A stretch of DNA of 64,000 nucleotides from Diphasiastrum complanatum (taxonomy: Eukaryota; Streptophyta; Lycopodiopsida; Lycopodiales; Lycopodiaceae): NCBI GenBank assembly GCA_029204225.1, contig CM055109.1:22222422-22286421 (forward strand). The letters run 5' to 3'. This document shows positions 11,951 through 43,241 of the stretch, one piece after another. The notes beneath the pieces were generated by a model. That model worked only from the letters and a program-made list of their open reading frames with translations, ran no database searches and was not told the DNA's origin. Positions within the stretch are counted from its first letter, which is position 1, and each line of letters opens with the position of its first letter. Both the position numbers and the translations under genes were made by a program.

Positions 11951-11960
11951 TGGCGAGTGA

Positions 11961-12295
11961 GAAACATAACAAAGAAGAACATGGAACATGATATCAAGTG
12001 GTTCAGTAATGTCTCCAAAAGCTTTTGTTATAACATCACTCATCATACATAAGTTGACAAATGGAATCCACGCATTAGCTTTTGGGCTTAGCGTAGAACG
12101 AGCTCAATGATAGGATATTAGAGGTACATAACAAAGAAGAAACATAACAAAGAAGAACATGGAACATGATATCAAGTGGTTCAGTAATGTCTCCAAAAGC
12201 TTTTGTTATAACATCACTCATCATACATAAGTTGACAAATGGAATCCACGCATTAGCTTTTGGGCTTAGCGTAGAACGAGCTCAATGATAGGATA
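11961..12295 (+). repeat. 178-bp tandem duplication
   Basis: Copies start at 11961 and 12139 (offset 178) and are almost identical through AACGAGCTCAATGATAGGAT, so the duplication is recent. It holds no recognisable gene. Confidence 0.95.
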
Positions 12296-13783
12296 ATAGG
12301 ATATTAGCCTTGTGCCAACGAGATGTAATACAGAGGCCACTCATTATTCTTTGGGAAATTCCATAGTCCTCGAGAGATTTGCTTTGTGTGGCCACAACAT
12401 ATATATATCATCTTTAGAAACAAGCGTTTAAATGATAAAAAACCATGTCATAAGCTACACAACATCAGTCTCATCTATGCAATAATGTCTAAATGATGCA
12501 TTAAATTTGTGTAAATTTGATCTTGACTTTTTCATTGGCACATTTGTGTTTTACATATTACACTATCTGAAATCGTTTTATGGAACATTTTGCTAATCAT
12601 TTCTCTCACTAGTTCCACCTATTATTACAACAAAGATTAGACCCTTTGACTTAGAGGAGGAAAATCTTTGGCTCCTTCGTCAAATTCCCCCCCTCTAATT
12701 GAGCAATTCTTCATAGACTGCCTTCCCACTTTTTGCCAAATCCAAATGTTCATTGTCTACCAAGCAAAACTTGTCCCTTTTTCAAATCCAAGAAATAACT
12801 ACTCCACTTCTTCTTTTTTCCATAGATCCCTCAAGTAGTTGTTTTGAGAATCAATTAAATCTAATAAGTTTTTACTCTTTGGTATTGAGTCTATAGGCAA
12901 TTATGATTTATTATGAAAGTATGTTGGTTCTTCTTTGAAATTTTTATCAAGAAGATCTTTTGTGGGCAATCCTAAAGTGTTAAAACAATCTAGTTTTCTT
13001 CAAATAGGCTTCTTAAGACTCAAGTGCATAAGTTATTAAGTACACTCATTGTGAAATATTATACAAATCTCAACTTGATGATTCTAGGCCTCAAGCCTAT
13101 GTCAATTATTGTAGGATTCCACCCTACATTCAAATATTCACAATGGGCCTTCAAGCTTGTGAATGGATCTATGTGCTATAATGGTAAATTGTGTAAAATG
13201 CAATTTTAGGCCAAGAGAGATCCAAAATCTGGCACTTCCTCTACATGTGGATAAGGTTTCTAGAAATTACCAAATTTCAGTGATGCATATCAATCATCTC
13301 TTATTCATCACACTTCTAGAGGCAATATATATAACTGATTTTGATTCATGACTAAATTTATGGAAAAAGGAGATGGCTCATATCTAGCCTAAAATCATTG
13401 AATCTAGATTACCTAATGTGAGGCCCAAACAAGTACGATTAGGTGCTCATTTCATTTCTAAAGTAGCTCGCTTGAAGCAATATTTAGGTTCTTGGCAGAT
13501 TTTTTTCTACCTCATTTCTATCTTTGTGAGTACCTAAGTCATGAGGATATAGGGTGGTCATAAATCTATGATAAATTGATGTTGTAGATGTGATTGTGTT
13601 TTTTATTGTTACAATATTAGATTTCTAGCTTTCTAGGTTTGTAGGTGCATGCAAGTCATAGAAATTGATTCATTCTCAAGATCCAAGTGTAGGTTGGTAT
13701 TGCACCAAAGTGAGTCTTGTGCATGCTCAACTTCTTGGAGATGAAAATCAAAAGCAAGGGTACATGATTTGCCTCTTGTCTTA
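12296..13783. other. No gene recognised
   Basis: AT-rich sequence without transposon motifs. The two short ORFs at 13024-13351 overlap in different frames and look like chance. Confidence 0.5.
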
Positions 13784-17315: not shown

Positions 17316-18038
17316 ATGGCACCCTCAATTGGAGTCATGTTGGAAGCCAATGATAGGCTTACCTAAGTAGCTATTCATTGTGGAAAGTGAGGATGGAGTC
17401 ACGTCTTGAGATGAATGATGTTTTGGATACTGTTGTAGGTTTGGAGGAGAGATCAGCAACACAACAATATCAAGTGAGGTATGACAAGAGGGCCAAGAAT
17501 GCTCTACACATGATAAAAATGAATGTTACCAATGAGCTTCTCAAGGAAGTTGGTAAGTGCACGTCATCTTTGAGCTTGGAATTCATTAAAGAAGCTTTAT
17601 GAATCCAAGTCTACTTCTAGAGTGTCGACTCTAAGAAGGCAAATCTTTTATTGTTTGCAAAACAATGAAGAAAGTCCAAGTACCTTTGTTTTGAGGATGA
17701 AAGCATTGAATGATGAGTTGGCTTACATTGATGAAAGCATTAAGGAAGGAGAGCTTATTCAAGTAATTCCTAGTGGCTTGTTGGATGCTCATGCTAACAT
17801 TGTTCAAAGTATTTCTATTCAAAAGACCTTGCCAAGTTTGTTGGATCTTCAAGAGATCTTGATCAATGAGGAATATAGGCTTCAAGCAAGAGGTGGATCT
17901 ACATCGACACTTCAAGAGGAAGCTATGATCACAAAGGGCAAATTCAAGGGCAAAACCAAAAGTAAGTGGTTTAAAGGGCAAGATCAAGTGGATGCTTCTT
18001 CAAGTGGCAAAAAGAAGAATAGATCAAAGATCAAGTAG
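17316..18038 (+). pseudogene. Copia gag (UBN2-type), truncated
   Basis: The nucleocapsid-precursor gene of a copia element. It opens MAPSIGVMLEANDRL, then after a frame change near 17365 reads LWKVRMES and HMIKMNVTNELLKEVG, the UBN2-type gag signature. A second frame change near 17585 leads to LYESKSTSR, LRRQIFYCLQ and a Lys-rich tail. The CCHC zinc knuckle expected next is missing: the frame stops at 18038 and the multi-gene block begins. A related gag on the minus strand at 30.8-31.4 kb confirms the family. Confidence 0.88.
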
Positions 18039-18250
18039 ATTAGAGCCATATCCTCTACCATATTTTTTGAGTGAGGAATGGATTTCTCCTGATGCATCAA
18101 TTCGAAAGTTTTCGATCTAGACTATATATTGATATTCAAAGTATATTAAAATGTAGCACTGGATCAAAGAATAATAGATTAAGTTAGTATCTACCTTTTG
18201 CTATTTTTGCTGATTTTTGTTCCAAATGCAATGTTTGGAGAACAAAAACA

Positions 18251-18796
18251 ATGTTTATTTGTAAGGACTTGAGTGCTAATATAATCGCCAAGTTGTTGGA
18301 TGATGGTTGGGATACAAAACAAAATCAGCAAGTTGAGTGCAGAGTGTGTTACTCATCCATGACATTTAGATATCACATCGAAAAACAAATGTTCACTTTG
18401 CTACTGTATTATAGAAGATGGATTAAATACAAAAATGTTTGGAAGCCACTTGATCAAGATTTTGGTATAAACCCTCAAGAGCAACTTCAGATAACAGTGA
18501 AAAGAAATGACAACATTCTTGCAATGGTTGAGGTCGAGGAAAATTGGTGTCTCAATTACATTCGATCAGAACTAGACATGTTGCAATTCGATCTACCTCA
18601 ATGCTATCAATTTCGATTGAATGGTGTAAGGTACATTATGTCATATAAAAATATTTCTTTTTTTCTATTTCTAAGTGAATCAGTTTCATAAAATATATTA
18701 GCTAAAACAATTTCTCTTGTGCAGATAAGAGTAAGGCAGGAAGAGCATATAAAATGCAAAGATATTGAAACATCCATCGAAATTGAAGATCCATAA
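18251..18796 (+). CDS. Two-exon gene of unknown family (first gene of the block)
   Basis: Exon 1 at 18251-18625 (125 codons) ends in a good donor, GGT|GTAAGG. A 99-base intron ends at TTGTGCAG (18724). Exon 2 at 18725-18794 continues in the same phase for 23 codons to a TAA at 18794-18796, giving about 148 residues. Exon 1 has CRVCYSS and YYRRWIKYKNVWKPL motifs and an acidic, regular segment VEVEENWCLNYIRSELDML followed by YQFRLNG, and exon 2 adds IRVRQEEHIK; the pattern resembles a small beta-grasp (ubiquitin-like) domain, a weak suggestion only. The matched splice phases argue for a real gene. An upstream exon may be missing, because the first ATG gives no typical amino terminus. It is transcribed toward the protease gene on the opposite strand. 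Confidence 0.5.
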
Positions 18797-18889
18797 ATTA
18801 TGAGCTATGAAATTTTGTATTATGTAATACAGTTTTTTGTATACATCATTTTTGAAAATATATGAACCACTTTTTCTATGACGCTCTTT

Positions 18890-19012
18890 CATTTATATGA
18901 TCTCCATTTCCATGGTGCAAAACACAATGTAATTGCAACTGGACAATATGAGTTTTCGATAACAAGATTCATTGTCTCATGTAGGAAATACATTATCTCC
19001 ACTGGGGAGATC
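18890..19012 (-). pseudogene. Duplicated terminal exon of the protease gene
   Basis: On the minus strand this reads ISPVEIMYFLHETMNLVIEN followed by SY, clearly related to VSPMEIMHFNQETIELVIEN plus SY in the exon at 19395-19538. Both follow an AAG acceptor-like end. It lies about 525 bp beyond the first copy and has a different carboxyl end. It is either a tandem exon duplication or a remnant of a second gene copy. Confidence 0.6.
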
Positions 19013-19800
19013 TTCAGCCACTTGAACTCCAGTGACTACATATATCAAATCGACGCTTGTCCTTGTTGAAGTCTCGTATACATTGGTTGTATTTTTTAAC
19101 TTCATTGCCTTGGTCTGTATTGTCCTTGTCTTGGCATATTTGGATATGTTCAGATGATGATCTGATCAAAGCTTTGCTACAACAAATCTAAGTGAACTAC
19201 AAGGCAGACCAAGGCTATGAAAAACAAACATGTCGAAAAACTGTAAAAATTAAAGATGAATGAATCATAATCTGAATCAATAACAGGAAAACAAACAAGT
19301 AAGAACAACCATAAAAAATTATAAATATATTTCTATTAAAAAATTTTGTAGATGTGTCTCATCCACATCAAATGAGATGAATTTTTTATCTGTATCAACT
19401 ATCTATGATCTCTAAATCCATTTCTCCAGTTGGAAGTAATTTGGGTGAAGAACACTCTGCCACTACAACTGGATATGAATTTTCGATCACAAGCTCTATG
19501 GTCTCCTGATTGAAGTGCATTATCTCCATTGGAGAGACCTTCGGGCATTTAAATTGAAAAAAACATAAACACAGTTGAATGTTATTAATCAAAGATTAGT
19601 TATTAGGAATTTGATTATGAAAAAAATACAAAAACATAATTAAATGTTATTAATTGAAGATTACCTCTTCTAAATTAGGAAGTCCATCATGTAGTGCAAG
19701 CCAATTAAAAAAGTGTTTGGCGTTGCATACCGTATACCAACCACAACTTATAGAATCAACCTGTTGGGAAGACTGCAGTATCAAAATTTTAACATTATGA

Positions 19801-19871
19801 GATATCGGATCAACGCGCAAGATGCTATAATAAAATCAACAACGAGAACAAGCGCGCATCGAACCAATATC
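19801..19871. repeat. Spaced inverted repeat A
   Basis: Left arm GATATCGGATCAACGCGCA (19801-19819), 31-bp spacer, right arm GCGCGCATCGAACCAATATC ending at 19871. It lies in the intron between protease exons E2 and E3. Confidence 0.85.
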
Positions 19872-19886
19872 CAAAAAATATTGTTT

Positions 19887-19958
19887 GAATATCGGATCAG
19901 CGCGCACGATTTGAAAAGAAACCAAACAATAATTACAAGGACGCGTCGAACCGATATC
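19887..19958. repeat. Spaced inverted repeat B
   Basis: Left arm GAATATCGGATCAGCGCGCA (19887-19906), 34-bp spacer, right arm ACGCGTCGAACCGATATC (19941-19958). It lies in the same intron, 87 bp after unit A. Confidence 0.85.
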
Positions 19959-20289
19959 GATAAATTTTTACCTTTGCATCAACATTTTCGTATATGCTAT
20001 TGCATTAGGTACTAGAAAGAGTTCTTGTATTTTCTGGATATGGCTCTTGGCAATTTTGTGTGTGTGGTAAATAGAGTTCATCTTTAAATAAACTGGATTA
20101 CACACACCCACATCATTGACGTATAAGGACAACACATATAAGCTCCAATGATCACTACAATCAGAAAATAATAAATATATGAGAATCAATGTGAAATCAA
20201 AATTCATATGAAAAATTAAACTTAATAAAATCTGAAAAAAATACACTTACTTTGTTATGTATGGGAGCACAAGAATTAGAGTCCTCAGT

Positions 20290-21078
20290 CTGACGTATTA
20301 GAACATATCATTGTGCAGATGTTTGAAATCAGGGAAGTCAAATGTAGCCATGAATTGAAGGAGAAACAATGCTACATCTATAAACAATGGGGTTTGGAAA
20401 AACTCCATCCAGTACTGAATGGACCACCTCCTACATTGTCACCTAACATTTTATCTCTACTTTCTAATTCAATTGTATCTAATTTAGAAAGGGGAAGACC
20501 AGCATTGGTCTTCGGCATCTTAAAACTATATCTTGGACCTAAAGCTTTAAAAATGTGTTCAATAATTGGTCATACTGTACATATTGAGGAGTATTTACAA
20601 AGGCGAGTGCAGGGGGTGACAGAAGTAATAAAGATAAACCACAAAAAGAATTGTCATTCAAAATTGATTCTACCTTTACATATACAAAATCATCTAAATC
20701 ATTTCCTAGAACAGGAGGCAAAAAACTAATATTTATGGGAGTAGGAGGAGACAGAGATTTTGAAGGAGGAGGAGATTTATTAGGAGAGGAAGATCTAGCA
20801 AGAGAAGTTAATAATAATGGAGTTCTAGGAGGAGAAGAAAGAGACTTGGGAGGAGATTGCCTAGCAAATATAATCTCATTTAGAGCAGATGGCTTTGAAA
20901 AATCCCTCACTTTATTAGAAGGGTCATGAGACCTCCTCTTCTTTGAAACACTCTCGTTCTTTATACGAATAACAAGTTGGGATGGTTGAGATTGCTTTCG
21001 TTTTCTCCTCTCTGAATCTTGTTTTGGAGGAGAGGAAGTAGCACATCTAAAGTACTTTGCAAATTTGTCATATGTGTC
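20290..21078 (-). pseudogene. Basic Ser/Pro-rich region between the H3-like and protease segments
   Basis: Directly after the TAG that ends the H3-like segment, the same frame stays open on the minus strand to about 20539. It opens DTYDKFAKYFRCATSS, is rich in Lys/Arg (ERRKRKQS, SKKRRSHD), then becomes a Ser/Pro-repeat stretch (SPPKSLSSPPRTPLL and SPNKSPPPSKSLSPPTP) and ends acidic (GNDLDDFVYVK) at a possible AAG|GTAGAA donor. Farther on, a second open stretch (about 20543-20380) reads IFKALGPRYSFKMPK and KLDTIELESRDKMLGDN before a stop. This could be the upstream part of the protease domain. The region is low complexity and its function is unknown; it is treated as a linker because frame and strand agree on both sides. 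Confidence 0.45.
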
Positions 21079-21464
21079 CTATAGCCTGAACACAGTGTTG
21101 AAATCCTTGGGCATGATGGTCACCCTCTTGGCATGGACAGCTGCAACAACAATATCTGAAAAACATTTCACTTGAAAATCCTCATATGCAGTGTGCAGCA
21201 CCTCTATTGTCCTTACAATCCATCTCACATCTACAGATAGACTTCTTGTAACTTGTCTGAGATGGATCTCTGTATGTGAGCTTTCGAAATCAGAAGATTA
21301 TTTGCCTTCTGTAGATTTCGAATATCCTTGAGCAAGGGTGGGTCTCGTTTTTTGCCCCTTGGCCTAGGAGGAGTTGGTGCTGGACAAGGCGGTGGTGTTG
21401 CATTTTCCTGACCCCCTCCTGTGATTGGGATTTCACCAGAGTGGACTTGTGTTATCTGCTTAGT
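21079..21464 (-). pseudogene. Histone H3-like fold
   Basis: After an acceptor ATAACACAG at 21465, the minus strand reads TKQITQVHSGE, a Gly/Pro-rich tail, then LLKDIRNLQKANNLLISKAH, which aligns with the alpha-N and alpha-1 region of histone H3. After a one-base frame change near 21235 it reads DVRWIVRTIEVLHTAYEDF (helix 2) and AVHAKRVTIMPKDF, 12 of 13 positions shared with H3 AIHAKRVTIMPKD. A TAG at 21079-21081 follows FNTVFRL. The tail is unlike canonical H3 and the body is diverged, as in centromeric-type or captured H3. The start codon was not found: a first exon should lie between the TATA box at 21705-21714 and 21480, where units C and D sit. The homology is clear; the frameshift indicates decay. 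Confidence 0.72.
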
Positions 21465-21481
21465 CTGTGTTATTAGTATCC

Positions 21482-21550
21482 AATATCGGATCAACGCGCG
21501 ATGGAGGATAACTCAGGTTTTGAGATCAGGTCGATCTCGTCCAACCAATA
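21482..21550. repeat. Spaced inverted repeat C
   Basis: Left arm AATATCGGATCAACGCGCG (21482-21500), 35-bp spacer, weak right arm CTCGTCCAACCAATA (21536-21550). It lies immediately upstream of the H3-like exon, in its leader or first intron. Confidence 0.7.
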
Positions 21551-21565
21551 CTTGAAATAAATTTA

Positions 21566-21647
21566 ATCGATAGTTGGTAGCGGATGCACGCGTGCGAGTA
21601 AAAGCTGATGGAAGGAAGTTTGCTTCGAGCGCGCTGAATCGATATCA
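21566..21647. repeat. Spaced inverted repeat D
   Basis: Extended, diverged left arm (21566-21596, containing GCACGCGTGCG), 31-bp spacer, right arm AGCGCGCTGAATCGATATCA (21628-21647). It lies between the minus-strand TATA box and unit C. Confidence 0.7.
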
Positions 21648-21704
21648 TATGGATATAAGGAACGATAAGAAATTCAAGCAAAAAAATTTCAACGTCGTCT
21701 GTTT

Positions 21705-21714
21705 GTTTATATAG
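21705..21714 (-). promoter_or_regulatory. TATA box of the H3-like/protease gene
   Basis: CTATATAAAC on the minus strand, about 250 bp before the H3-like exon. Position and sequence suit a leftward promoter. Confidence 0.5.
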
Positions 21715-22020
21715 TGAAAATCCGAAATGTTTGCAAACGTAGGGGTTTGGATGTTCGAGACTCGGATTACTTTGAGATATTTAGAGACTTGTCAATCAAA
21801 TCAAATTAAATATCAGTCTTTCTTCATGATTAGTCGATAATAACCACCACAATTAATTAAAACAAAAGTATGGTCACTTCTACAATTAATTCTACAAAAA
21901 TATGGTCACATCTACAATTTATTGCTGAAATTGACAAGGTTAAGCTATAAATATCTGACCTTTTTTATATCTAATTATAATAATTTCGAAAAATTCCAAC
22001 GGCCATTATTTCACTCAATA

Positions 22021-22087
22021 GCAAATCGACGCGCATATACTGAATGTGATAAACAGAGGGGATATTCTCATGTTGAACTGATATTGG
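22021..22087. repeat. Spaced inverted repeat E
   Basis: Left arm GCAAATCGACGCGCAT (22021-22036), 34-bp spacer, right arm TGTTGAACTGATATTGG (22071-22087), a weaker match. The flank before its left arm resembles the flank before unit F, so E and F may share an origin. Confidence 0.6.
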
Positions 22088-22100
22088 AAGATAATATGAA

Positions 22101-22175
22101 TGATCAAAGCTTGACTCGATAATTTCTCCTTAGTTGTGTATAGCATGAAGAGTCTATCGAATCAAGCTTTGATCA
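22101..22175. repeat. Spaced inverted repeat with different arms
   Basis: Arm TGATCAAAGCTTGACTCGAT plus A (22101-22121) pairs with the reverse complement at 22155-22175 with one mismatch in 21. The 33-bp spacer equals that of the CGCG units although the arms share no sequence with them. Confidence 0.85.
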
Positions 22176-22228
22176 TGCAAAATACTCTCCAATAATTTTG
22201 AAAAATTTCCAAATTTTTTCCTACAATA

Positions 22229-22297
22229 GCAATTTGATGCACGCACAGTCCAAGTGAAAAATCATTGCCTTTTCCACAGGCGCGCTGATCCGATATC
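22229..22297. repeat. Spaced inverted repeat F
   Basis: Diverged left arm GCAATTTGATGCACGCACA (22229-22247), 31-bp spacer, right arm GGCGCGCTGATCCGATATC (22279-22297). Confidence 0.75.
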
Positions 22298-22691
22298 TGA
22301 GATGCACTGAATATATATTGGAATGCATTATGAATGCATTATGAAAATGTTCTAAATAAACATTATCTCAAAAGGAAAAATCTCGTCTTTACGGTCCTGA
22401 AATAGGACAAGAGTCTATAATGATTATTCTTGTACACGTTTTTCAATATTGTCCATTTAATATTTGTTTTATGATGATTCGGTGGGCTAATGATAGACTA
22501 CTTAATGTATTCCAGCGTAGGTACAGATTCTAGGATCAGGGCTAATGATGACTCGTAGAATCTAGTGACAGAGTATTTAATGTATTCCGGTGTAGGTACA
22601 AATTTGTCTCACTCTGATTGGTGGATAAATATAGGCTATGTTTCTCAATTCATTATTTGACAAATGTATGGCTGTGATCAACAGGAATTGG

Positions 22692-22700
22692 CTATAAATA
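22692..22700 (+). promoter_or_regulatory. TATA box of the divergent plus-strand gene
   Basis: CTATAAATA, a near-perfect TATA box about 280 bp before the ATG at 22978. It faces away from the minus-strand TATA at 21705-21714, so 21.7-22.7 kb looks like a shared promoter region. Confidence 0.6.
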
Positions 22701-22779
22701 TGAGCACCACTCTCCATATTTCAATTCTGTGATCTTTCGTTCTGAACTCACTAGTCATCTTGTTTTCTTTCTTTCTCGA

Positions 22780-22850
22780 GATATCAAATCGACGTGCGTC
22801 TTCCCATACAATGCATGGTCGGATTCATTTAGACGCGCTGAATCGATATC
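22780..22850. repeat. Spaced inverted repeat G
   Basis: Left arm GATATCAAATCGACGTGCGT plus C (22780-22800), 31-bp spacer, right arm GACGCGCTGAATCGATATC (22832-22850). It lies in the presumed 5' leader of the plus-strand gene. Confidence 0.85.
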
Positions 22851-22897
22851 AGCCTCTTCTGACGTGTGTTTGCAAAAAATTTCATTCTCATCCTAAC

Positions 22898-22968
22898 GAT
22901 ATCGGATCAACGCGCACATTGTGGTTTATCCTTCTACCAATATTATTCTGTCGCGTTGAGCCGATATC
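22898..22968. repeat. Spaced inverted repeat H, the best-paired CGCG unit
   Basis: Left arm GATATCGGATCAACGCGCA (22898-22916), 34-bp spacer, right arm TCGCGTTGAGCCGATATC (22951-22968); 16 of 17 core positions pair. It ends 9 bp before the ATG at 22978. Confidence 0.92.
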
Positions 22969-22977
22969 AGGTTCAAT

Positions 22978-24889
22978 ATGGCTAGTTCCTACATGTCCTT
23001 AGATAAAAAACTTTCGGATTTTCTGAATGCCAGTGATATTCCATCTGAGAAATTAGAGTATTTTGCGAGTATTTCTTTGCTCTCTTCGGTATCGATAAGC
23101 TAGTTTATGAAAATCATTATAATTTAATTTCTTATCTTGATAATTTTTCTCAAATTATTAGTACTCCTATTTTGGTTATAGATAGTTTTTGTTTCATTCA
23201 TTTTCAGAGCCTTGTGCATTCCCAACCATCCTTTAAGCATAAACACAATAGAAAGTACTCTAACCTGCATGACTATTTCAAAAGAAATATATATTGTGAT
23301 ATCCACAAAAGAATATGTCGCCTTATAATCAAAGGAATGGCTTTTATCTTTTACATATCTACTGAAATTTCAGATTATGAGTCTGTTGAATCTTCAACTG
23401 TTTCATTGATCGAAGCATCTGCACCTGCTCTAGTTGATGTAGATGATGTAGATACTGATATAGGAATTGAAGCTGAAGCATCTATGGCTTCAGATTATCA
23501 AAAAACTCTCTCTCGTTTTACAATCTTCATCCAAATTTTGACACAGTAGGTCTATCTTAAAACTGTAAGACAGACCTTAGGGACCCATCCTCGAATTTTT
23601 TTTAAAAATGTCGTTAAAGACTTCAGGAAGACCAACAAACAATACCATTTTCCTTGGGCACCTGAATGTTTCGGTCTCGTCACTCTCCTTCACTTCCAAT
23701 GGGCTTCCATCTCCTTTTCTTCATGCGTCGTCCAGACACGCTCGCTACTTGCCTCACACACACAATTTCTTGTCATCGGATCGAGGCTGGCTTTCATCTA
23801 TCGGCATAACTAGATTGAGCGATTCCCTCGTGGTCTGCCATGTTGTTGGTGAATCTCTCACCGATAAAAACTCCCATACTAGCCAGTTCTTCTCCCTCTT
23901 CCATCTCCATCTCCTATTAATCAATTAACTCTACTCGATGTTCCCTTATATTTTATAAATAATGAAAGCTATATTTTATATAATGATATAGAAGATGTTT
24001 TGAATTTGAGAGAGGACAAAATCCTCTCAATTTTTTTTTCAAAATTTATCAAAATTTTTTGACATTGTTGATTACACATGTGATGACCTTCAAAGTGAGA
24101 TAGATTATGATAAAGATGGCAATTGGAAATCTGGCAATGAGGCCTTGGAGGCCATGATCAAAAAATATAAAGCCTATGAAATAACTTTGCCTACAGAGGA
24201 GGAATTTTTGGAATTCCAAAAAAAATATCCCCCAAGGCCTAGATATGTCCCCTCCGAAAATTTGTAGAGGCCATTGGAGGACATGACATGACATTAGCAG
24301 AGCGAACGTCATTGAATACGATGATTATGATCTGGTACGTAGATATTATATTGGTATTGATATGGTTCAGTTTTTTTATTTCAAACACTATGTTAAAGTA
24401 TGAGTTTGCAGTGTTATGTATCATTCTAAATTTATTTTCTTTTCTCGTCTACAAGATGATATTGAAATTGATGCCTTTGGTATTAGACATGAAGGCGTCC
24501 GAGGTGTATTAGCCGGGAGAAAGAATGTATCTCTATCTCATTATTTGAAAAAATTTCAAAATAATGAGATTTGTATATATCATTCATCTTTTAATTTATA
24601 TTCAACCACTGCCATTATGGCCATCAAATCATTAGTTTGTTTAGGAGGCCATAAGTACGCAAGAGGAACATATAAAATAATTTTTGTGAAAAGAGATTTG
24701 GCTATCAAGATTTTGGGTTATACTCTCAATGAGACTACGAAAAGATCATCTGCAATGGCCCTTTATTCGGGTTATATTGATATGAACAAAAGGAAAAATT
24801 TAGAATTTTTGGATCCATATGAAAGGAAATTATTCCTTCATGACAATACCATTCGTCTGAATCTTGAAGAGGACGATGAAGATAATTAA
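22978..24889 (+). pseudogene. Unrecognised plus-strand gene of the block, broken
   Basis: From the ATG at 22978, 41 codons (MASSYMSLDKKLSDFLNASD and onward) run to a stop at 23101. A second frame is open from about 23088 to 23549 (GIDKLVYENHYNLISYLDN, later an acidic stretch DVDDVDTDIGIEAE). A third is readable around 23590-23800 (KDFRKTNKQYHFPWAPECF), a fourth at 24064-24267 (CDDLQSEIDYDKDGNWKSGN), and the last at 24416-24889 encodes a basic then acidic carboxyl end (GGHKYARGTYKIIFVKRD, ending NLEEDDEDN). The coding-like pieces are in one direction and in order, so they probably come from one gene with introns and frameshifts. I do not recognise the family. TATA box and units G and H lie upstream; it converges on the transposase-like exon ending at 24958. 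Confidence 0.45.
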
Positions 24890-24957
24890 ACAATTTTCTA
24901 TACTAGATTTTTGATATATTGCAAGGATCCCTCTTTTGTTATGAATTTGAATGCCTT

Positions 24958-25447
24958 TCAAAATATTGTAATACTTGGCGAGTTTTTAGCTTGATATCTA
25001 AATTGTGCTCTTCTATAAAACCACTGAAAAAGTTGAACTAAATATTTATTTCTTGAATTGTGTCCTCCATGATTTGTTGCTCTATGAAATGCTCTCCTTG
25101 CTTGCCAATGAGATTTTTCCATGCCTTGTGATGACCAGATACTTAAGCTCCCATATTCTTTTGCAAAATAAGTTGCATGATGAAGAAGGATGTGCTGCAA
25201 ACAATAGTTTTGATTAGTTACATCAGTAGAAGAAAATATAAGCCTGAATGAGAAAAGTACCAATATCAAGAAAAATATTATTGCAATCGTTGTAATTGAA
25301 CTCACCATATTCTTATTTGTATAATTTAGTTATATGGAGTGGTTGACCAACTACTTTGAACATTCCGTCATTATAATAATTTCTTGCTAATCTTACCCGA
25401 TATGGATGCGGAAGATAAATTTTCTTCACCATCACTTGGGAAGAAGC
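24958..25447 (-). pseudogene. Transposase-like gene: last exon and end of the split exon
   Basis: On the minus strand 25447-25313 continues the exon interrupted by the copia insertion (SSQVMVKKIYLPHPYRVRLA, then NYYNDGMFK) and meets a stop. The last exon starts after GTTTGCAG at 25195 and reads HILLHHATYFAKEYGSLSIW, then SSQGMEKSHWQARRAF and TNHGGHNS, WFYRRAQF, to a stop at 24958-24960. The order HxxLHH, EYGSL, QGMEKSH, TNHGG resembles the carboxyl end of transposase-like orphan proteins of large DNA transposons (KDZ-like); this is a resemblance I recall, not a search result. The donor AAA|GTAGTT at about 25355 would keep the phase. Confidence 0.5.
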
Positions 25448-25709
25448 TGTCAAGAATTAGATATGCAACATCAAGCATTCACCATAAGCAATCACCACAA
25501 GAAGACGGAAGAAGAACATGCACTATCACTCTATCACGCTAACTCATACAGAATGTAAAAAGTACAAATAACCCTGAACCCCTGATAGAGAGAGAAAACC
25601 TACGAGTAGACTAATAGACTAGCCTACGGCTAATGACAGCTGGTCACAATTGTCAACATTAATGTACCTCGTAAACAGTAACAATGAAGTTTATCATTGA
25701 TTTCTAACA
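25448..25709 (-). repeat. 3' LTR of the 25.4-30.4 kb copia element
   Basis: 262 bp, TG...CA ends; followed on the right by CTCTCCCTC, the purine tract on the element's own strand. Few differences from the 5' LTR at 30108-30368, so the insertion is fairly young. Confidence 0.93.
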
Positions 25710-28700
25710 CTCTCCCTCAATGATAAAATTACATTCTTCTATTCCTAATAGAGTACGAAACCTCTCAAATTTACATCTACCTAATGACTTAGTAAAAATA
25801 TCTGTCATTTGATCTTCAGATTTACAAAAAACAACATCAATGGCTCCATCAATAATTTTCTCTCGAACAAAATGGTAGTGTATTTCGATGTGCTTGGTTT
25901 GAGCATGTAGAACTGGTTTTTTGGCAAGGTGAATGCAACTTTGATTATCGCAAGATATAGTAGTCGCATCCACCTATGGTTGACCTAAATCCACAAGCAA
26001 TCTTCGTAACCATACCGCTTTTTGTGTAGCATTGCTGAGTGCTCATATTCAGCTTCCGTCGATGATAAGGCTACTATAGGTTGCTTTCTGCTGCTCCTTG
26101 AAATTGCAGCTGTACCATAATTGAATGTATGACCACTGGTAGATCTTCTGTCATCAATCTTACCTACCCAATCGACATCTGTATAACCTACCAACATTGG
26201 CACTTCAGGCTGATCATACTTCAACCCAAATTCAATGTCCCTCGAATGTATATGAGAATACGTTTAGCAGACTTCTAGTGTGCTTGATTAGGATCTTGCA
26301 TAAATTGACTAACAACACCAACAGCATAAGAAATATCAGGTCGTGTGTGTGTCAAATAAATCAAACTACCCACTAGTTGTCAATACAAATAAGCATCCAC
26401 GTTCATCATATGCAGTAAGCTTCATGTTGACATCCATAGGTGTACTCAAAGGCTTACAATCCTGCATATTGAACTTATAAAGCAAATCTTGTGCAAATTT
26501 GCTTTGTGTAAGAAAGACCATGTCTTCCTTTTGCCATACTTCAATGCCAAGACAATAGTGCATCAATCCTAGATCACTCATGTCAAAAGCATTGGAAAGA
26601 TCTGATTTTATTTCATCAAATAAGCTCTCATTACTTCCTGTAATAATCAAATCATCCACGTACAACACAATGAATACTATATCTGAGTCTTGCCTTAGAA
26701 TGTAATTATAAGGATCAGCATCACTCTTTACCATTCCCCTTCACTTGAAGTGTTCATCAATGCAATAGTACCATGTCCGTGGTGCTTGCTTCAATGCATA
26801 AATGGCTTTGTTGAGCTTACAAACGAGATGCTCTCTCCCTGGCTCAACAAATCCTTGAGGTTGTACTAAGTACACCTCTTCATCCAGCACTCCATTAAGA
26901 AAAGCAGATTTAACGTCCATTTGCTGGATCTTCCAACCATAGAAAACAGAAATAGCAATGATAGAATGTATCGTTACCATCTTAGCTACGGGTGCGAAGG
27001 TTTTCTCGAAATCAATACCTTCCTACTGCTCAAATCCTCTTGCAACCAACCGTGCTTTGTACTTGTTGAGTTGCCCATCAGCTCCATATTTGATCTTGTA
27101 GGCGTCTTACAATCAGGTAGCTCAACCAGGTTTCACATCGTATTTTTCGTTATGACTTCCATTTTTGTTTCCATAGCTTCACGCCACTCCTTGTGCTCCT
27201 TTGCTTTATCAAAAGCTTTTGGTTCTTGAGCCTTGAGCACAAAACCCATTAGGGCTAGATTCATCTCTAATCTTGCAGGAGATTTTTGATTTCTACTTGA
27301 TCTTCTAACTCTCCTTGCTCACTTGATTCAAGAGTATCTCCCTTATTAGCATCACTTGTTACTGACAAGTACCACTTAGGCACTCTCCTAGGAATCTCAT
27401 TATTGACCCTGTCTTTTTCCATTGGCTCTTTCATAGCGACACCAACTTCTTCCTTCACTTGCACTTCAGCTTTATCATCAAAGAGATCAATTGTCAATTT
27501 TATTTGGTCATTTTGACCTATCTCATCAAAAGTAGCATCTCTGAAAATCATGATCTTTTGTGCATCTGTGTCATACATCCTATATGCCTTGGCTCTTTCA
27601 TCATATCCAAGGAAAATACACTTAACAGCTTTAACATCCATCTTCTTTCATTTTTCATCAGGTACATGAGCGTAAGCATCACAACCAAATACTCGTAAAT
27701 GAGAAACATTAGGTTTCTTTCTACTAAAAGCTTCGTAAGGTGTCTTACCCTCCACGGACTTTGTAGGACATCGATTCAAGATATGAGTAGCTGTGTTGCA
27801 TGCTTCTACCCAAAAAATATTTGGCAAACCCTTGCTCTTAAGCATTGCCCTAGCCATCTCCACAATGGATTTGTTTTTCTGTTCTGCAACTCCGTTCTGT
27901 TGTGGTGAATAGGATGTAGTGGTTTGTCTCTTGATCCCCTGATTCTTGCAAAAGTTTATAAACTCTGCTGAAAAATACTCACCGCCACCATCTGATCTGA
28001 GGGTCTTAATATAACAACCTGTTTGTTTTTCAACTAGAGCCTTGAACTCTCTAAACTTGGCAAAAGCATCAGATTTCTTGCTTATGAAATAAATCCAGAT
28101 ATGTCTACTATAGTCATCAATGAATGTGATGAAATAGTAATAACCACTAATGGATCTAGTTTGTATTGGTCCACACAGATCACTATGAACAAGATTAAGA
28201 ATGACATTGGCTCTTCTTGCTCCATCTTTGGGAAATTTCTCTCTATGTTGTTTTTCCAAAATGCAACCCTCACAAATTTTTCCTTCAAAAGAGATATCAG
28301 GCAACCCAACCATTAGATTACCTCTTTTAAGAATTTGCAAGCTTTGAGCATTGATATGACCAAACCTTTGATGCCAAAGATCATTTCAACTATCAACAAT
28401 GCTTACTATAGCTGGAGTAAATGATCTCGCATTCAATTTGTAGAGTCGATTCTCGTTGACTCTAGCTTCTGTAGCAATCACTTTGTAGTGTTTCTTGATG
28501 TCTTTGACAAGACATTTGTCGCTGTCAAACTCAACCTTGAGTTGTTGATCAGCCATCATCCCAATAGATAGTAGATTGTTAGCTAAGCCAAGTACATATT
28601 GCACATTGCTTATCTGCTTTATCTTCTCGCTGACTAACTTCACTGGTACCACTCCAACTCCTTTAACAGATAGCAATTTGCCCATCAGCTTGTCCAACTT

Positions 28701-28974
28701 CATCACCATTGTCAGTTTCCTTGAGTTCTGAAAACCATTCTTTCCTTGAAGTCATGTGCTTGGATGCACCACTATCAATGTACCATGTATCCTTGGCTTC
28801 ATCACTTGTCATTAATGTTGTAATGAATAATTTTGAACTCTCACCAGTATCATCTTCATATTGATCATCATCGTATTGATGTTGATCAGTATAATTGTCT
28901 TCATAATAATAGTCATCAAATTGATGTTGATCAGCATAATTTTCCGCTTGCCATTTGTCTTTTCTTTGTTCCAT
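25710..28974 (-). pseudogene. Copia pol (protease, integrase, reverse transcriptase, RNase H)
   Basis: On the minus strand the polyprotein reads protease WYIDSGASKHMT (about 28860), integrase with GKICEGCILEKQHREKFP and core HSDLCGPIQTRSISGYYYF (28340-27648), a linker with FLGYDERAKAYRMYD, reverse transcriptase with FIVLYVDDLIITGSNES (about 26690) and RNase H with ALSSTEAEYEHSAM and TKHIEIHYHFVREKIIDGA, ending near 25704. There are at least five frame interruptions, including a lost segment near 27000-27240, so no full polyprotein can be made. The catalytic YVDD and the DSG of the protease are preserved. Confidence 0.92.
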
Positions 28975-29215
28975 CTCCTTCTGTTTCTTGAAGCATTCAC
29001 GCTCCCAGTGGCCAGGTTTGTTGCAGTACCTACAATTTATAGGTTTATTTTGTCTTGAATAGCTGCATCGCTGACCTCGACCTTGATTCCAATTGCCTCG
29101 ATTCGGACTATCATTGACTTGCTCATGAAATTGTTAGAGTTGCTATTATTGGATAGATGAGTCTGGTTCACAAAATCTATCACACCACAAAACTGTAAAT
29201 TTTTTGGTTGGACAC
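28975..29215 (-). pseudogene. Copia gag zinc-knuckle region
   Basis: Minus strand: a Gly/Arg/Gln-rich stretch followed by CRYCNKPGHWERECFKKQK, a CX2CX4HX4C zinc knuckle that packages the element's RNA. The gag frame is lost above 29215, where the hairpin-bearing array begins. Confidence 0.85.
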
Positions 29216-29217
29216 CT

Positions 29218-29458
29218 GATATCGGTACAATGCGTAGGTGCACGACTACTCGAGATTCTCTTTAGCTCGCGCGCGTGGATCTGATATTGGTACAAATATG
29301 CGATATCACTATGACGCGCGGATGGACAACTGCTCTAGATTTTCTTTACCTCTGGCGCATCGTTCCAATAATGGTACTGATATGTGATATCGGTATGACG
29401 TGCGGATGTACGACTGCTCTTGTTTTTCTTTACCTCTGGCACGTCGATCCAATATTGG
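29218..29458. repeat. Three 84-bp tandem units, each a GATATC/CGCG spaced inverted repeat
   Basis: Left arms start at 29218, 29302 and 29386 (exactly 84 bp apart), beginning GATATCGG or GATATCAC. Right arms are at 29269-29290, 29354-29374 and 29438-29458, for example GGCACGTCGATCCAATATTG. Spacers are 30-32 bp. Arms resemble those of the 19.8-23 kb units in sequence and geometry, with more divergence. They lie inside the copia element, between gag and the 5' LTR. Confidence 0.78.
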
Positions 29459-29730
29459 TATAGACAAGATGAAAAGTAGAGAGAATATAAGAAATTTTAG
29501 AGAGTATTCTAGATTCCCCACTTCAGCACGGCAGCTACGCCACCTCCTCTTTGCAAAGATTTCAAAATGTGTGATCTTTCAAAAGACAGAGATCAGTAAT
29601 GTGAAAAGTAGAAGCTTCCTAACTCTGAATGACAATACTAGACACTATCTAGTGTGATTTGTGGTACTCCAAATAGACAAATGAGAGATTTCTTGGCAAA
29701 CGTCTCACACAAATAGCACTTTCCACAACA

Positions 29731-29927
29731 ACTAGGAATTATTGTAAGAATCCCCCCCACTCAACAAATTTTCAATCTGTCTGATGCTGCCCTAGCCTTT
29801 TCGATGCCTGCAAGACTGTGCTTTTCACAAAAACTAGGAAGTATTGTAAAAATCTCCCCACTCAACATATTTTTAGCTTGTTTGATGTTGCCCTGGCCTT
29901 TCTGATGCCTTCGGGACTATGTCTTTG
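29731..29927 (-). repeat. About 102-bp tandem duplication in the copia leader
   Basis: Copies starting ACTAGGAATTATTG (29731) and ACTAGGAAGTATTG (29833), with shared blocks CCCCACTCAAC and GATGCTGCCCT/GATGTTGCCCT; moderately diverged. Confidence 0.8.
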
Positions 29928-30093
29928 TTCCCCACTGATGATTCTGACCTCCAAACCTGTAAAATACACCAAAGAAAGATTTCTTCCAACCGTTTTTATC
30001 TCTCCAAGCTTTCACCTCTCGTGAAGGACTTTCTCACTTCGTTGCGGAGCCTGTGACAAGCTGTATCCACTGATCAGGCACGCAAGACTATTG

Positions 30094-30107
30094 CTGCTCT
30101 GATACCA
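30094..30107 (-). other. Copia primer-binding site
   Basis: On the minus strand TGGTATCAGAGCAG, complementary to initiator-Met tRNA, directly adjoining the LTR end at 30108. Confidence 0.92.
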
Positions 30108-30368
30108 TGTCAAGAATTAGATATGCAACATCAAGCATTCACCATAAGCAATCACACAAGAAGGCGAAAGAAGAACATGCACTATCACTCTATCACACTA
30201 ACTCATACAGAATGTCAAAAGTACAAATAGACCCTGAACCCCTGATAGAGAGAGAAAACTACGAGTAGACTAATAGACTAGCCTATGGCTAATGACAGAT
30301 GGTCATAGCTGTCAACATTAATGTACCTCGTAAATAGTAACAATGAAGTTTATCATTGATTTCTAACA
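30108..30368 (-). repeat. 5' LTR of the 25.4-30.4 kb copia element
   Basis: 261 bp, matching 25448-25709. It abuts the primer-binding site on its left and host-gene sequence on its right. Confidence 0.93.
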
Positions 30369-30593
30369 AAAGCTTCTTTAACTATTCTAAAAAAAGGAGA
30401 ATAAGCATTTCCGCTAATTCTAGATACATCAAATGCACCTTGTATCACATTTGCATCCAAGTTTGATTGAACCTTAATCAAAACAGTCTCTGCAATTTCA
30501 TTTTTCTCTGTTGACTTTCTTGGTAAAACCTGACTTAAAGATGATCCAATGCATGAACGATATGTTAAATAGTTCTTTGCCACCAAACATGAT
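30369..30593 (-). pseudogene. Transposase-like gene: split middle exon
   Basis: An acceptor GTTGCAG at 30594-30600 opens the exon. With phase 2 supplied by the exon at 32723, it reads KSCLVAKNYLTYRSCIGSSL, then VIQGAFDVSRISGNAYSPFF and RIVKEA, where the copia LTR interrupts it. The frame resumes at 25447. I do not recognise this part of the protein, but the matched phase and the open frame across the insertion show it was one exon. Confidence 0.6.
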
Positions 30594-30639
30594 CTGCAAC
30601 AAACATACGAAACTCAAATTATGTTTAATAAATAATTAA

Positions 30640-32616
30640 TGTTAAATTCACATGTGTGGGACGCCCTACACATGTACTTTTGATCTCCTAAGCCCAATAA
30701 TACCATAAAGATCAGACTAGCATTGATTGACAATAGGAAAGCTGATCATAGAAGAAATATTATTGTTTTACAAGCAAGATCTGTCAACAAAACAAGAAAC
30801 TAAGCATAATAAATGCCTCATAACTTGAACAAGTTCATTTTGGTTGATGGAGTCTCCTATGCATGACAATTCTCTATGGAGGTCTTTAACTCTCATTACA
30901 TAAACTGAAGCACATTCATCACTTCTCTGTACACTTTGAAAAATCTGGTTTCTTAGTGTTAGAAGTCTAGAAGTATTCTTTGCCTCATAGATGGACTTGA
31001 GAGTATCCTAAGCATCTTTGGCATTAGTAAAAGCACCAATTTCTCTTAAGATGTCATTTGAGACATTCATCTTAATATAATGCAGAGCCATCCTAGCTCT
31101 CTTTTGGTACTTTGGAATTTCTTGAGGAATTTGTGGTTCTTCTTCAATTCCAAGTACCATATCCATCACATCTTGTAGTATTAAGACAGATTCCATCCTA
31201 ACCTTCCAAATTGAGTAATTGGAGGTTGACAATCTTTCACTTGCTTCTAATAGAAAGACACTCATTGAAGTCATAAAGAATGATGGAAATAAAAAAAGAT
31301 GGATGAAAAAATTGCTTATCTTCTCACTATAGGAACCAATCAAGGGCAAAAAACCAAATCCTATGTAAAACAAAGCAAAAAAATTGTGAGATAGATCTCA
31401 CTAGCTTGACAATCTCTCTAAAACAAGATTTGAATCATGAAAAAAGATGAAGTATGGCAAAAATTATGGTTCTCTGAATTTCACACGTGTGAAATACTCC
31501 AAAAATGTCAAATTGACTCAAATACAGTCTATTTGTATGAAAGAATTTGCCTAGAACCTATAAATTTTGTCTAAATCACATATAGATGAGATTGGGCAAC
31601 TTTTGGATGATATTTGTGATCATTCAGGCAATAAATGACATGTACTCACGATTTGCCATAGGTCTAGGCACCCTACCTACGACTCTTCAAAAGCTTATAA
31701 CTTCTGATTGGCTTATCCAACTGTCATGATTCAAATTGCATCAAATTCTACACATTTTTAGCTTTCTAGTGGGCTAATTTGCATGAAATTTTGATCTAAG
31801 ATGAGGGAGAAGCACCAAACTGAAAATGGGCAGATTTCACACGTGCCAACACCTGAAATTCCATATAGTACCTGATCTGGACCATTCAAAGTGGTTTGAG
31901 GCTCTAAATCACCAGAAAACTACAAACTAGCTAGAAAGTAGAATCTAGACAATTCCTAGTTTGAAATTTGATCAAATCTGCAAACTTTTTGATTAGATTT
32001 GCTTGTAAATGTTAGGTAGGCTCTGATACCATGTTGAATTCACACGTGTGGGATGCCCTACACACGTACTTTTGATCTCCTAAGCCCAATAATACCATAA
32101 AGATCAGACTAGCATTGATTGACAATAGGAAAGCTGATCATAGAAGAAATATTATTGTGTTACAAGCAAGATCTGTCAACAAAACAAGAAACTAAGCATA
32201 ATAAATGCCTCAACTCGGCTAGTGAGAGAATATGAAAGTACAAAACTCAAGTAGAGAGAGAGGGCACAAAGAGCTTGTCTCCAAATTTGCATTACACCCA
32301 AATTTCATCATTTTCTCAATGAGAGTACATCACATATATATAGATCCATGGACTCTCCTCCTCCTTTGAGTTGAATTGGAGTTGTGAATCCACCTCTCAA
32401 GATATCTAGAATTATTCAAGCCACCTCACTATGTCTAATTGTGCCACCTAGTCTTTTCATGCATTAAATGTGGCATGCAAAGTACAAATGGCAATTCCTA
32501 TGGTAGCTTGAGTTTCTACTTCTACCTACCTTGAATATTTTATTCTAAGATGGGACTTTACCAAGCCAAAAGAGCTCAATTCATCTTTGGCATTTTTAGG
32601 ACCCCTACTCACAACA
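30640..32616 (-). mobile_element. Copia element reduced to LTR piece, gag and full 5' LTR
   Basis: The right LTR (32032-32616, 585 bp, starts TGTTGAATTC, ends CACAACA) is preceded by a primer-binding site (32019-32031). Its first 175 bp recur at 30640-30813, where the sequence jumps directly into gag. The whole of pol and most of the 3' LTR are missing. It sits in the intron between the two transposase-like exons at 32723 and 30593. Confidence 0.8.
30830..31373 (-). pseudogene. Copia gag (UBN2-type) fragment
   Basis: Minus strand: MTSMSVFLLEASERLSTSNY, SIWKVRMES, HYIKMNVSNDILREIG, a stop at about 31008, then continuing IYEAKNTSRLLTLRNQIFQ and VKDLHRELSCIGDSINQNEL before the join to LTR sequence at 30813. 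Same gag family as 17316-18038. Confidence 0.85.
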
Positions 32617-32722
32617 TTAGATAGATTTTTCCAATATTTTGACAAATAATCCATGTTATCAAGTGCAAATCAAACTTAAATGACATATACAAATCAAAGA
32701 AACAGTTTATATGACAACATAC

Positions 32723-32874
32723 TTGAATGCTCGAATTCTTTTTTTCTGATTGCCGCTATGTGTAGATAAGTCATCAATATTCTTCATCGGTACTCTCTTT
32801 CTTTTCCTCTTCATCATTGCCTTATTGATAACTTTTATATCAACAGCTAATTTAAACTCTTGAATCGCAACTTT
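32723..32874 (-). pseudogene. Transposase-like gene: upstream exon
   Basis: Minus strand: VAIQEFKLAVDIKVINKAMM, then a strongly basic KRKRKRVP, and GNQKKRIRAF to a donor CAA|GTATGT at 32723/32722. It joins in phase 2 to the exon beginning at 30593. The basic run could be a nuclear localisation signal. The start of the gene is not visible. Confidence 0.5.
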
Positions 32875-32899
32875 TCAATGGATTCTAACATTTCTTGGT

Positions 32900-33253
32900 T
32901 TGATCGAAAGTGTCGTTTCAGCAAGAAGACAAAGAAGAAGTCATGAAATAGATGCGGAGGAGCATTGCCATTATGTTCAAGGACCATCTACACCAGCCTT
33001 GCAGCCCAAACCAAAATTTGGACCAAAGCACTTTGTACCTGCTCAGACAATGAGCTCAAATTCAAAAACTGTTTATGCACCGGTCAGTTTACCGTCGAAG
33101 AAGCTGGCAGACAACTGTTATAATTGTGGTGCACAAAGCCATTATTCTCTCAATTGCCCAGAGCCTCGCCAACTAATCAGCTATGTCCCATTCTGTTCAA
33201 ATTGCTCGGCATCAATGTTCCCATATAGGAACGCTGCTTTCACAATAATCTAG
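32900..33253 (+). pseudogene. Gag-like fragment with a CCHC zinc knuckle
   Basis: A plus-strand 117-codon frame with Pro/Lys-rich sequence followed by CYNCGAQSHYSLNC, a CX2CX4HX4C zinc knuckle of retrotransposon nucleocapsid type. It ends where a minus-strand reverse transcriptase fragment begins at about 33212. The family (copia or other) cannot be told from this piece. Confidence 0.5.
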
Positions 33254-42310: not shown

Positions 42311-42905
42311 AAGCTACTTGAGCTCTCAAAATAGTAGAGTCTCCTCCTCTCTATTAAGCATAGAAATGGGTTACAAATGGTGCCTTTTTATCTTTGGAGT
42401 GGCCCTTGCACCTTGCTTCCTATTGGCTACTTGCAAAAAATGGGATTGTAATCCACACCATCCACAGGAAACACAAATGCATTAAGGGAAATATGGGCTC
42501 AAAATGGGCCCTTTAAGAAATTTCACTTTAGAGAGAGATTATGTAGAGAGAGAATGCAAACCAGTAACGTTTGGTCACCGTTTTCCGAGTTTTCGGCCTT
42601 GTTTGACGTTTAACTAGTATGGTTAGTTTCAAACAATAGTTAGTTAAGAATGAGATGTAATAATTTCTCTTCATGCTCATTCCAAAATTCGGGACTAGAG
42701 CTTTAAGACTAAAAATCTTGGTGTGCTCAATGCAAAAACTGAAGCGGGAGTGGCATAACTTTTGAAGTCACTATATGCTTATAGTGAAATATGAGACGGG
42801 ACGATTTTTCAATGCGACGTAAACATTACAAATGTAAGGTATGCTAGATCTAATCATATTGATTTACTGTAGTTTGATGCATTTACATGATTGTAGCTTT
42901 TAACA
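42311..42905. other. No gene recognised
   Basis: AT-rich with no motif I can assign. Confidence 0.45.
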
Positions 42906-43241
42906 ATGGCAATGTTCCATTTGCATGTTGCTCTTTCGATGGAATGCACTAAGAAAAACGCGGAAGTTGTAGAGAATGCTGCTGCAGTAGTTAGAGAATT
43001 GAGAATGAATAATCAAATGAATATAGATTTGTGGGTGGATGGATCAATTTATCCTAATGATCCAGCTACCAATTTGTGTCCAGATTTTAAGTCCGTAACT
43101 CATCTTCTCATATTTGTATGTGAAGGAAATAGCGGATTATTTGGATATTGTCAAAGGTTGCGTGATATTGGAATGCATAGCATATCTTGTCTTAATCAAC
43201 AATTACAGTTTGCTAATCAGCAATTGCAACGTGCAAATTAG
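42906..43241 (+). other. ORF of 111 codons, not recognised
   Basis: Opens MAMFHLHVALSMECTKKNAE, has a repeat-like NQQLQFANQQLQRAN end, and overlaps the tail of the gypsy gag on the other strand by a few bases. No domain, promoter or splice support. It could be a fragment of an element carboxyl end or chance. Confidence 0.25.

Follow-up and report, generated by a model that had tools for sequence, protein, structure and literature searches.

Paired inverted 18-bp arms at a fixed distance in the gene leaders and an intron of a DNA transposon of Diphasiastrum complanatum that carries a histone H3-like gene

Within a 64,000-nucleotide stretch of the lycophyte Diphasiastrum complanatum (contig CM055109.1, positions 22,222,422 to 22,286,421; hereafter the window, with positions counted from its first letter), eight short units, A to H, each consist of two inverted arms separated by a spacer, and they raise the question of what holds the arms at a constant distance while the sequence between them changes. 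A reading of the letters alone (the sequence-only reading) had described these units and offered three roles for them: binding sites for a dimeric protein, subterminal sites of a transposase, or foldback RNAs giving small RNAs. Our analysis places the units in a multicopy, very common plant-type DNA transposon, among whose genes is one for a histone H3-like protein. They may serve as docking sites for a transposon-encoded anti-silencing factor, working like the VANC/KIU proteins although the element is not a VANDAL member by the tests made; on this functional reading we are evenly divided.

Geometry and occurrence of the paired units

All eight units are present at 19801-22968 in the window sequence. 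The arm motif is RATATCRRWTCRRYGYRY, and the two inverted arms start about 53 bp apart across differing spacers, giving a unit of 71 bp with two 18-bp arms and a 35-bp spacer. This start-to-start distance is exact in units A, B, D, G and H with 18-bp arms, and is 51 bp in E and 55 bp in F by matrix scan; the right arm of unit C (near 21535) is degenerate and falls under the matrix threshold. The units and a solitary arm are as follows.

Unit A, 19801-19871: arms 19801-19818 and 19854-19871, within the intron of the H3-like gene
Unit B, 19888-19958: arms 19888-19905 and 19941-19958, in the intron shared with unit A
Unit C, 21482-21552: strong left arm 21482-21499, degenerate right arm, 8 bp before the H3-like start position
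Unit D, 21576-21646: arms 21576-21593 and 21629-21646, in the leader of the H3-like gene
Unit E, 22017-22085: arms at 22017 and 22068, downstream of a second TATA-like box
Unit F, 22225-22297: arms at 22225 and 22280, polarity reversed (T-type, then A-type)
Unit G, 22780-22850: arms at 22780 and 22833, in the leader of the plus-strand gene
Unit H, 22898-22968: arms at 22898 and 22951, 9 bp before the ATG at 22978
Weak lone arm (matrix score 11.5), 19041-19058, plus strand

The constant geometry was therefore recovered in sharper form than had been claimed. The sequence-only reading gave spacers of 31, 34 and 35 bp because it took the arms at unequal lengths; its changing spacer sequences stand, and its changing spacer lengths do not. 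Its description of the region as CpG-poor holds, with an observed/expected CpG ratio of 0.39 in the window, against 0.48 in the rest of the element and 2.2 in the arms. No single period was found among unit-to-unit distances (84, 86-87, 94-95 and 118-119 bp). The lone arm at 19041 is probably the remnant of a unit; at a related locus (L041) the equivalent intron contains a complete one.

At up to 5 mismatches the arm GATATCGGATCAACGCGC matched the window 17 times, compared with 0, 2, 2, 0 and 0 matches, every one at 5 mismatches, in five first-order Markov simulations of the window. When up to 2 mismatches were allowed, scans of the whole genome (1.74 Gb) returned 2006 matches on each strand, whereas the reversed pattern gave 2 and 2; a degenerate pair pattern permitting gaps of 22-48 bp matched 365 places, against 0 when reversed. 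The density comparison with simulated sequence and the search for gapped inverted arms, of the kinds that the sequence-only reading had proposed, both came out in its favour. Among 50 distinct places listed of the 365, many of which are copies of one unit and thus not independent, a hand count gave a gap of 35 bp in 40, 34 bp in three, 36 bp in three and a value outside this range in four, with 46 having a start distance within 1 bp of 53. The four off-distance places belong to a class with telomere-like CCCTTAG/CTAAGGG palindromes in the spacer.

A matrix derived from the loci detected 350 arms in the window and loci, and 5 in the reversed sequences. Pairing, which accepted arm distances of 44-62 bp only, yielded 148 units and left 54 arms unpaired; the units fall in 16 spacer clusters, and 140 of them have arms 51-54 bp apart. 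With the 44-62 bp limit lifted and facing arms paired at up to 200 bp, 137 of 213 pairs show this distance. A chance origin of arms and pairs is ruled out by the Markov simulations, the reversed-pattern counts and the matrix scan on reversed sequences. The units are likewise ruled out as small transposons in themselves, because their spacers differ by position.

The carrier transposon, its genes and the placement of units

The transposon is interrupted by nested insertions in the window, where its left end is missing. Gene structures (leaders, exons, intron) were inferred from sequence, not from RNA.

Transposon main stretch, 18035-25448, plus strand, matching the 10-kb loci; left end missing in the window copy
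Transposon continuation past nested insertions, 30368-32905 (30368-30640 and 32644-32905), plus strand, by match to the loci
Right end (terminal inverted repeat) of a same-family transposon, 42480-43307, minus strand
H3-like coding part, 21082-21473, minus strand, degenerate in the window copy, start codon reading ATA
C-terminal extension of the H3-like gene, 20250-20482, minus strand
Next exon of the H3-like gene (SDHWSLYVL...), 19972-20156, minus strand, read from sequence
199-bp intron with units B and A (GT...AG), 19773-19971, minus strand, read from sequence
Further exon of the H3-like gene (SSQQVDS.SCGWYTV...), 19665-19772, minus strand, read from sequence
TATA-like box of the H3-like gene, 21706-21716, minus strand
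Second TATA-like box, before unit E, 21946-21953, plus strand, reading TTTAAATA or otherwise altered in several copies
TATA-like box of the plus-strand gene, 22693-22700, plus strand
Plus-strand gene, 22978-24886, plus strand, start at 22978, last exon within the open reading frame (ORF) 24404-24886

Copies of the element share a left border starting CATTAGGGGATATTAGAACTCAAAATGGGCCC, which recurs in imperfectly inverted form as the right border. The left end occurs at 1064 genome places at up to 3 mismatches and at 0 when reversed. Copies spanning both ends measure 8.3 kb (L010 with L029) and 6.4 kb (L017), lengths obtained by subtraction, and terminal inverted repeats (TIRs) were found at both ends of L010/L029, L017, L039 and L043; in these four both-ended copies, which are old or nested, no matching flanks indicating a target-site duplication were seen by eye. 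Near the right end, a minus-strand gene encodes a product with 39 protein-database relatives, of which 28 were aligned and share nearly invariant GDLK, C..C, VH.CT.H and RI.EK blocks. Its protein had no Pfam match above the cut-off, and we read it as a putative transposase. Most transposon copies examined are broken, and the ratio of nonsynonymous to synonymous polymorphism (pN/pS) among copies is 0.76 for a transposase piece (n=8) and 0.40 for the left-end ORF (n=10). Adjoining the transposon at 18035 is the partial gag of another copia (Retrotran_gag_2; 17574-18038).

The placement of units was compared across the examined parts of 19 transposon loci (L009-L028, minus the copia locus L013), which include the left end in 10 and the right end in two. 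Every arm in these loci corresponds to one of units A-H, to the half-unit at 19041, or to an additional unit of that region, whether extra, fused or remnant (L010, L012, L015, L022 and L024), and position comparison in these parts revealed none in exons, in the transposase gene or at the ends; loci L029-L032 contain no unit. Two divergent genes, the H3-like gene and the plus-strand gene, both bear units in their 5' leaders. In most copies seen, 8 bp separate the end of unit C from the start codon of the H3-like gene and 9 bp separate unit H from the plus-strand ATG; L026 has a 4-bp insertion between unit and start codon. TATA-like boxes precede units D, E and G, several copies having changed boxes. 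The intron of units A and B retains GT in 14 of 14 copies and AG in 13, with a length of 198-200 bp in 12 and of 204 and 153 bp in the others, and 142 bp of its approximately 199 bp consist of the two units. The proposal of transposase subterminal sites is consequently disfavoured, the units in these parts lying at an internal divergent promoter region and in introns instead of at the ends.

The H3-like gene starts next to unit C on the minus strand, and its first 129-131 residues match histone H3. Canonical H3 aligned to it with 38% identity (tblastn, E 1e-20), and the copy in L027 matched solved H3 chains over residues 1-129 (E 6.8e-20), covering the histone fold and the H3 N-terminus. One piece from the window scores 34.3 bits with Pfam Histone, above the cut-off of 26.4, and the other pieces fall short. 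All 150 scored candidates of 9194 in the genome match at E 8e-67 or better, so the number of H3-like genes is large. Lysine 4 is present in 11 of the 13 N-termini with a start codon (the exceptions being L023 and L037) and lysine 9 in none, a count in which L024 is a deletion copy and from which the window copy, having no start codon, was excluded. Given pN/pS values of 0.28 for the extension (n=13) and 0.56 for the H3 core (n=10), the extension was clearly under constraint in the past and the core modestly so; the last exon of the plus-strand gene gives 0.65 (n=14). A search of 5.8 billion proteins gave 1117 candidates, none of them a homologue of the extension at E 0.001, in a database that may be poor in intron-bearing genes. 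One exon of the H3-like gene, FKCPKVSPMEIMHF..., occurs twice in the element (18913-19026 and 19404-19553), the second copy having the unit remnant at 19041 next to it.

Units also occur away from the full-length transposon. Two short TIR-to-TIR derivatives, L039 (1574 bp) and L043 (1441 bp), bear units and have no ORF above 79 residues, and another derivative, L037, keeps units together with the 5' end of the H3-like gene. The telomere-like CCCTTAGGG/CTAAGGG spacer class is found in short non-autonomous derivatives (L035, L039, L040, L043, L046 and G000:C1:69110763-69111273). A second kind of carrier is a copia retrotransposon, a copy of which is nested in the transposon of the window.

Nested copia long terminal repeat retrotransposon, 25448-30368, minus strand: repeats 25448-25709 and 30108-30368, 95% alike, with copia domains
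Copia-leader units, 29218-29456: pairs 29218/29271 and 29386/29439 and a lone arm at 29302, in a tandem period of 84 bp

By eye, the copia units of the L013 and L044 copies lie upstream of the gag start, in a leader portion missing from the window copia. The spacers of copia units form one single-linkage cluster with those of L038 and L042, and L042 has the right end of the transposon; segments have therefore moved between transposon and copia, in one direction or the other. Next to its units, the copia leader also contains a tandem repeat of 101 bp (29719-29910).

Arm constraint and candidate functions

Conservation was computed for each unit over 12-15 copies, and arms exceeded spacers in all eight units (mean column identity 0.894 against 0.838, P 4e-4). 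At any one unit position the spacers are conserved between transposon copies, so the units are parts of a larger repeated element. The sequence-only reading had named longer identity through the spacers as a finding that would speak against it: the units do lie in such an element, whereas spacers are unrelated between most unit positions, so that its unrelated spacers hold between positions and not among transposon copies at one position. When CpG-prone sites were separated, in a comparison that leaves out four arms probably carrying search seeds, the remaining sites diverged by 0.060 in arms, compared with 0.158 for spacers and 0.102 for flanks, values given here with no significance test.

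The arms within a unit do not covary. In a sample of 16 representatives, one per spacer cluster and nearest the consensus, which limits its power, within-unit pairing was 80.6%, against 81.6 +/- 1.0% with right arms redealt among units. Of the 146 units that have A or T at position 9 of both arms, 113 combine an A-type with a T-type arm; this combination is the majority in 13 of 16 clusters, tied in one and reversed in two. With the element oriented, the order is A then T in units A (11/12), B (12/12), C (8/8), D (9/10), G (11/11) and H (12/13), mixed in E (6/12) and reversed in F (5/6), with 12 further units not assignable by spacer. Because C/D and G/H are predicted to be transcribed in opposite directions, this polarity is a property of the DNA element rather than of an RNA.

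These results bear first on the proposal of foldback RNAs, by which units transcribed in the leaders and intron would function through their RNA fold or give rise to small RNAs. The units do lie in apparently transcribed noncoding sequence, and in the window, units A, B and H give clearly better folds than shuffled sequences do (z -3.4, -3.0 and -5.5); the other five, C to G, fold at chance level (z -0.7, -0.3, -0.1, 0.35 and -1.2). The absence of covariation, the built-in A/T mismatch in 113 of 146 units and an element-wide polarity that does not change with oppositely running genes all count against an RNA function, as does the Rfam search of 18000-31000, in which no family reached its gathering score and the two sub-threshold matches (22081-22195) lay off the unit arms. 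The structural check thus favoured neither foldback nor small RNAs, and we regard such a role as very doubtful. A 40-bp inverted repeat with a 33-bp loop lies at 22082-22194 between E and F, with sub-threshold similarity to mir-1422 and MIR774 (E 0.005 and 0.008).

Since the two arms of a unit match each other no better than arms shuffled between units, a DNA-binding role fits better than an RNA hairpin. Arm conservation, unconstrained spacers, a constant separation of approximately five helical turns and the lack of covariation suggest a protein contacting both arms on DNA, and of the three roles first offered, the binding site for a dimeric protein appears to be the best supported. One protein would grip both 18-bp arms simultaneously on the same helix face, about five turns apart. 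The presence of units in leaders and an intron, their spread to derivatives and copia, and the chromatin-type gene nearby point to a VANC/KIU-like system. The candidate factor would be encoded by the transposon, either by the H3-like gene or by the plus-strand gene, and when bound to the units it would keep the promoters of the element unsilenced, a self-protection and self-activation such as VANC provides for VANDAL. We infer, from sites whose geometry, places, constraint and occurrence in non-autonomous copies and copia are directly established, that the units are bound by protein, that the factor is encoded by the element and that it acts against silencing rather than in simple promoter control.

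Other proteins could be imagined at the same sites. The units might be operators, at which a dimeric factor of transposon or host activates or represses both genes downstream of their promoters, with no connection to silencing. Each of the three TATA-like boxes has a unit start some 60-90 bp downstream, one site type is common to two divergent genes, and the evidence at the DNA level is the same as for anti-silencing; however, L039 and L043, which have no recognisable genes, and copia keep units where gene-specific control would be less useful, and two units are intronic. We consider the operator explanation possible, though rather unlikely. The units might alternatively mark the first nucleosome or tetrasome after each promoter, built with the H3-like histone of the transposon. 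An (H3-H4)2 tetramer wraps about 71 bp of DNA, the length of the near-symmetric unit, which lies just downstream of TATA-like boxes in an element that encodes an H3-like protein. Histones, however, have little DNA sequence specificity, and a conserved 18-bp arm suggests base-specific recognition, which makes nucleosome positioning improbable. Binding by the transposase, as a requirement for excision and insertion, would be consistent with units being kept in short non-autonomous derivatives that have both ends, but in large copies none mapped near the ends, the first being approximately 2 kb or more from the left end in loci that cover both, and a copia retrotransposon that uses no such transposase bears units; to this we attach the lowest probability of all.

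Several observations weigh against the anti-silencing reading itself. Without correction for CpG, arms are better conserved than flanks in only five of the eight units (overall 0.894 against 0.885, P 0.43), and CpG-prone sites diverge alike in arms (0.182), spacers (0.188) and flanks (0.192); arm sites of this kind thus decay as fast as elsewhere, and no lasting protection is visible in present-day copies. Indels occurred at 4.0 events per kb in arms, 9.6 in spacers and 11.0 in flanks, so spacers resemble flanks and the constraint on length rests on the agreement between unrelated units. The loci were picked via a near-consensus arm, which over-represents well-kept units and under-samples poor ones. 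Among the candidate factors, the pieces of the plus-strand gene tested had no Pfam match and identified no binding protein, and its structure model was too poor for use (mean predicted local distance difference test score, pLDDT, 36.5). The further exons of the H3-like gene show HW and QQ.DSVSCGW motifs that resemble a Ulp1-type protease by eye only, Pfam and PDB sequence searches having returned nothing in support of that kinship. Lastly, the one-orientation arrangement of VANC motifs is not found here: the arms are 18 bp long and stand in inverted pairs at a fixed 53 bp.

Comparison with known systems

The VANC motifs, as described in passages of PMC5735166, PMC10398659 and PMC13317346, are short (8-9 bp), arrayed in one orientation and located in introns and upstream regions, as well as in the unrelated element AT9TSD1; some VANC genes carry a Ulp1 domain (KIU type). 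As in VANDAL elements, motif clusters here occupy upstream and intron noncoding parts of a multi-gene DNA transposon, and the motif is shared with related elements and one unrelated element (AT9TSD1 for VANC, copia here). In contrast to VANDAL, the present element has clear TIRs and a histone H3-like gene. No Pfam match to a MULE transposase or to DUF1985 was obtained in ten translated pieces or in the further pieces tested, which are degenerate and partial and leave room for a distant relation.

The inverted repeats recall foldback elements and miniature inverted-repeat transposable elements, as do the short TIR-ended derivatives L039 and L043; however, the 71-bp units are not element-like, their spacers vary by position and the TIR is a different sequence. 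In CACTA and hAT elements, short repeated subterminal sites are bound by an element-encoded protein. The units share the repetition of short sites, but they are not subterminal, stand in pairs at a fixed distance, and occur where genes begin and within an intron.

The encoded protein aligns with H3 variants over 129 residues, with a MARTKQT-like start and the histone fold, but its identity to canonical H3 is about 38%, lysine 9 is missing, a proline-rich stretch replaces the tail, and the protein has a long C-terminal extension and is transposon-encoded. Viral histones (PMC9145170) offer the likeness of a mobile genome with a histone gene, and the passages of that paper on transposition do not describe a transposon-encoded histone. 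A limited literature search, with most subscription journals outside its scope, likewise returned no title or abstract describing a transposon-encoded H3.

Since the H3-like protein lacks lysine 9, a bolder reading can be put forward, in which the transposon would make its own chromatin and replace host H3 on its own promoters. An H3 variant with lysine 4, which can bear an active mark, and without lysine 9, the site of a silencing mark, would be brought to the element, itself or via a partner factor, by the 71-bp units immediately downstream of the promoters and would block host H3K9 methylation there, and non-autonomous copies and copia would exploit the sites; we think this unlikely. Were the anti-silencing reading true, the units would belong to a sequence-specific anti-silencing system that is the second of its kind in plant-type transposons and was built independently of the first. 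Its two-arm geometry would make the recognition code directly testable, in an element carrying an H3 variant without lysine 9, so that transposon escape from H3K9 methylation would become a concrete biochemical test and the paired site a possible tool for targeting chromatin factors. Elsewhere in the window, a 178-bp direct duplication, about 99% identical, lies at 11960-12299.

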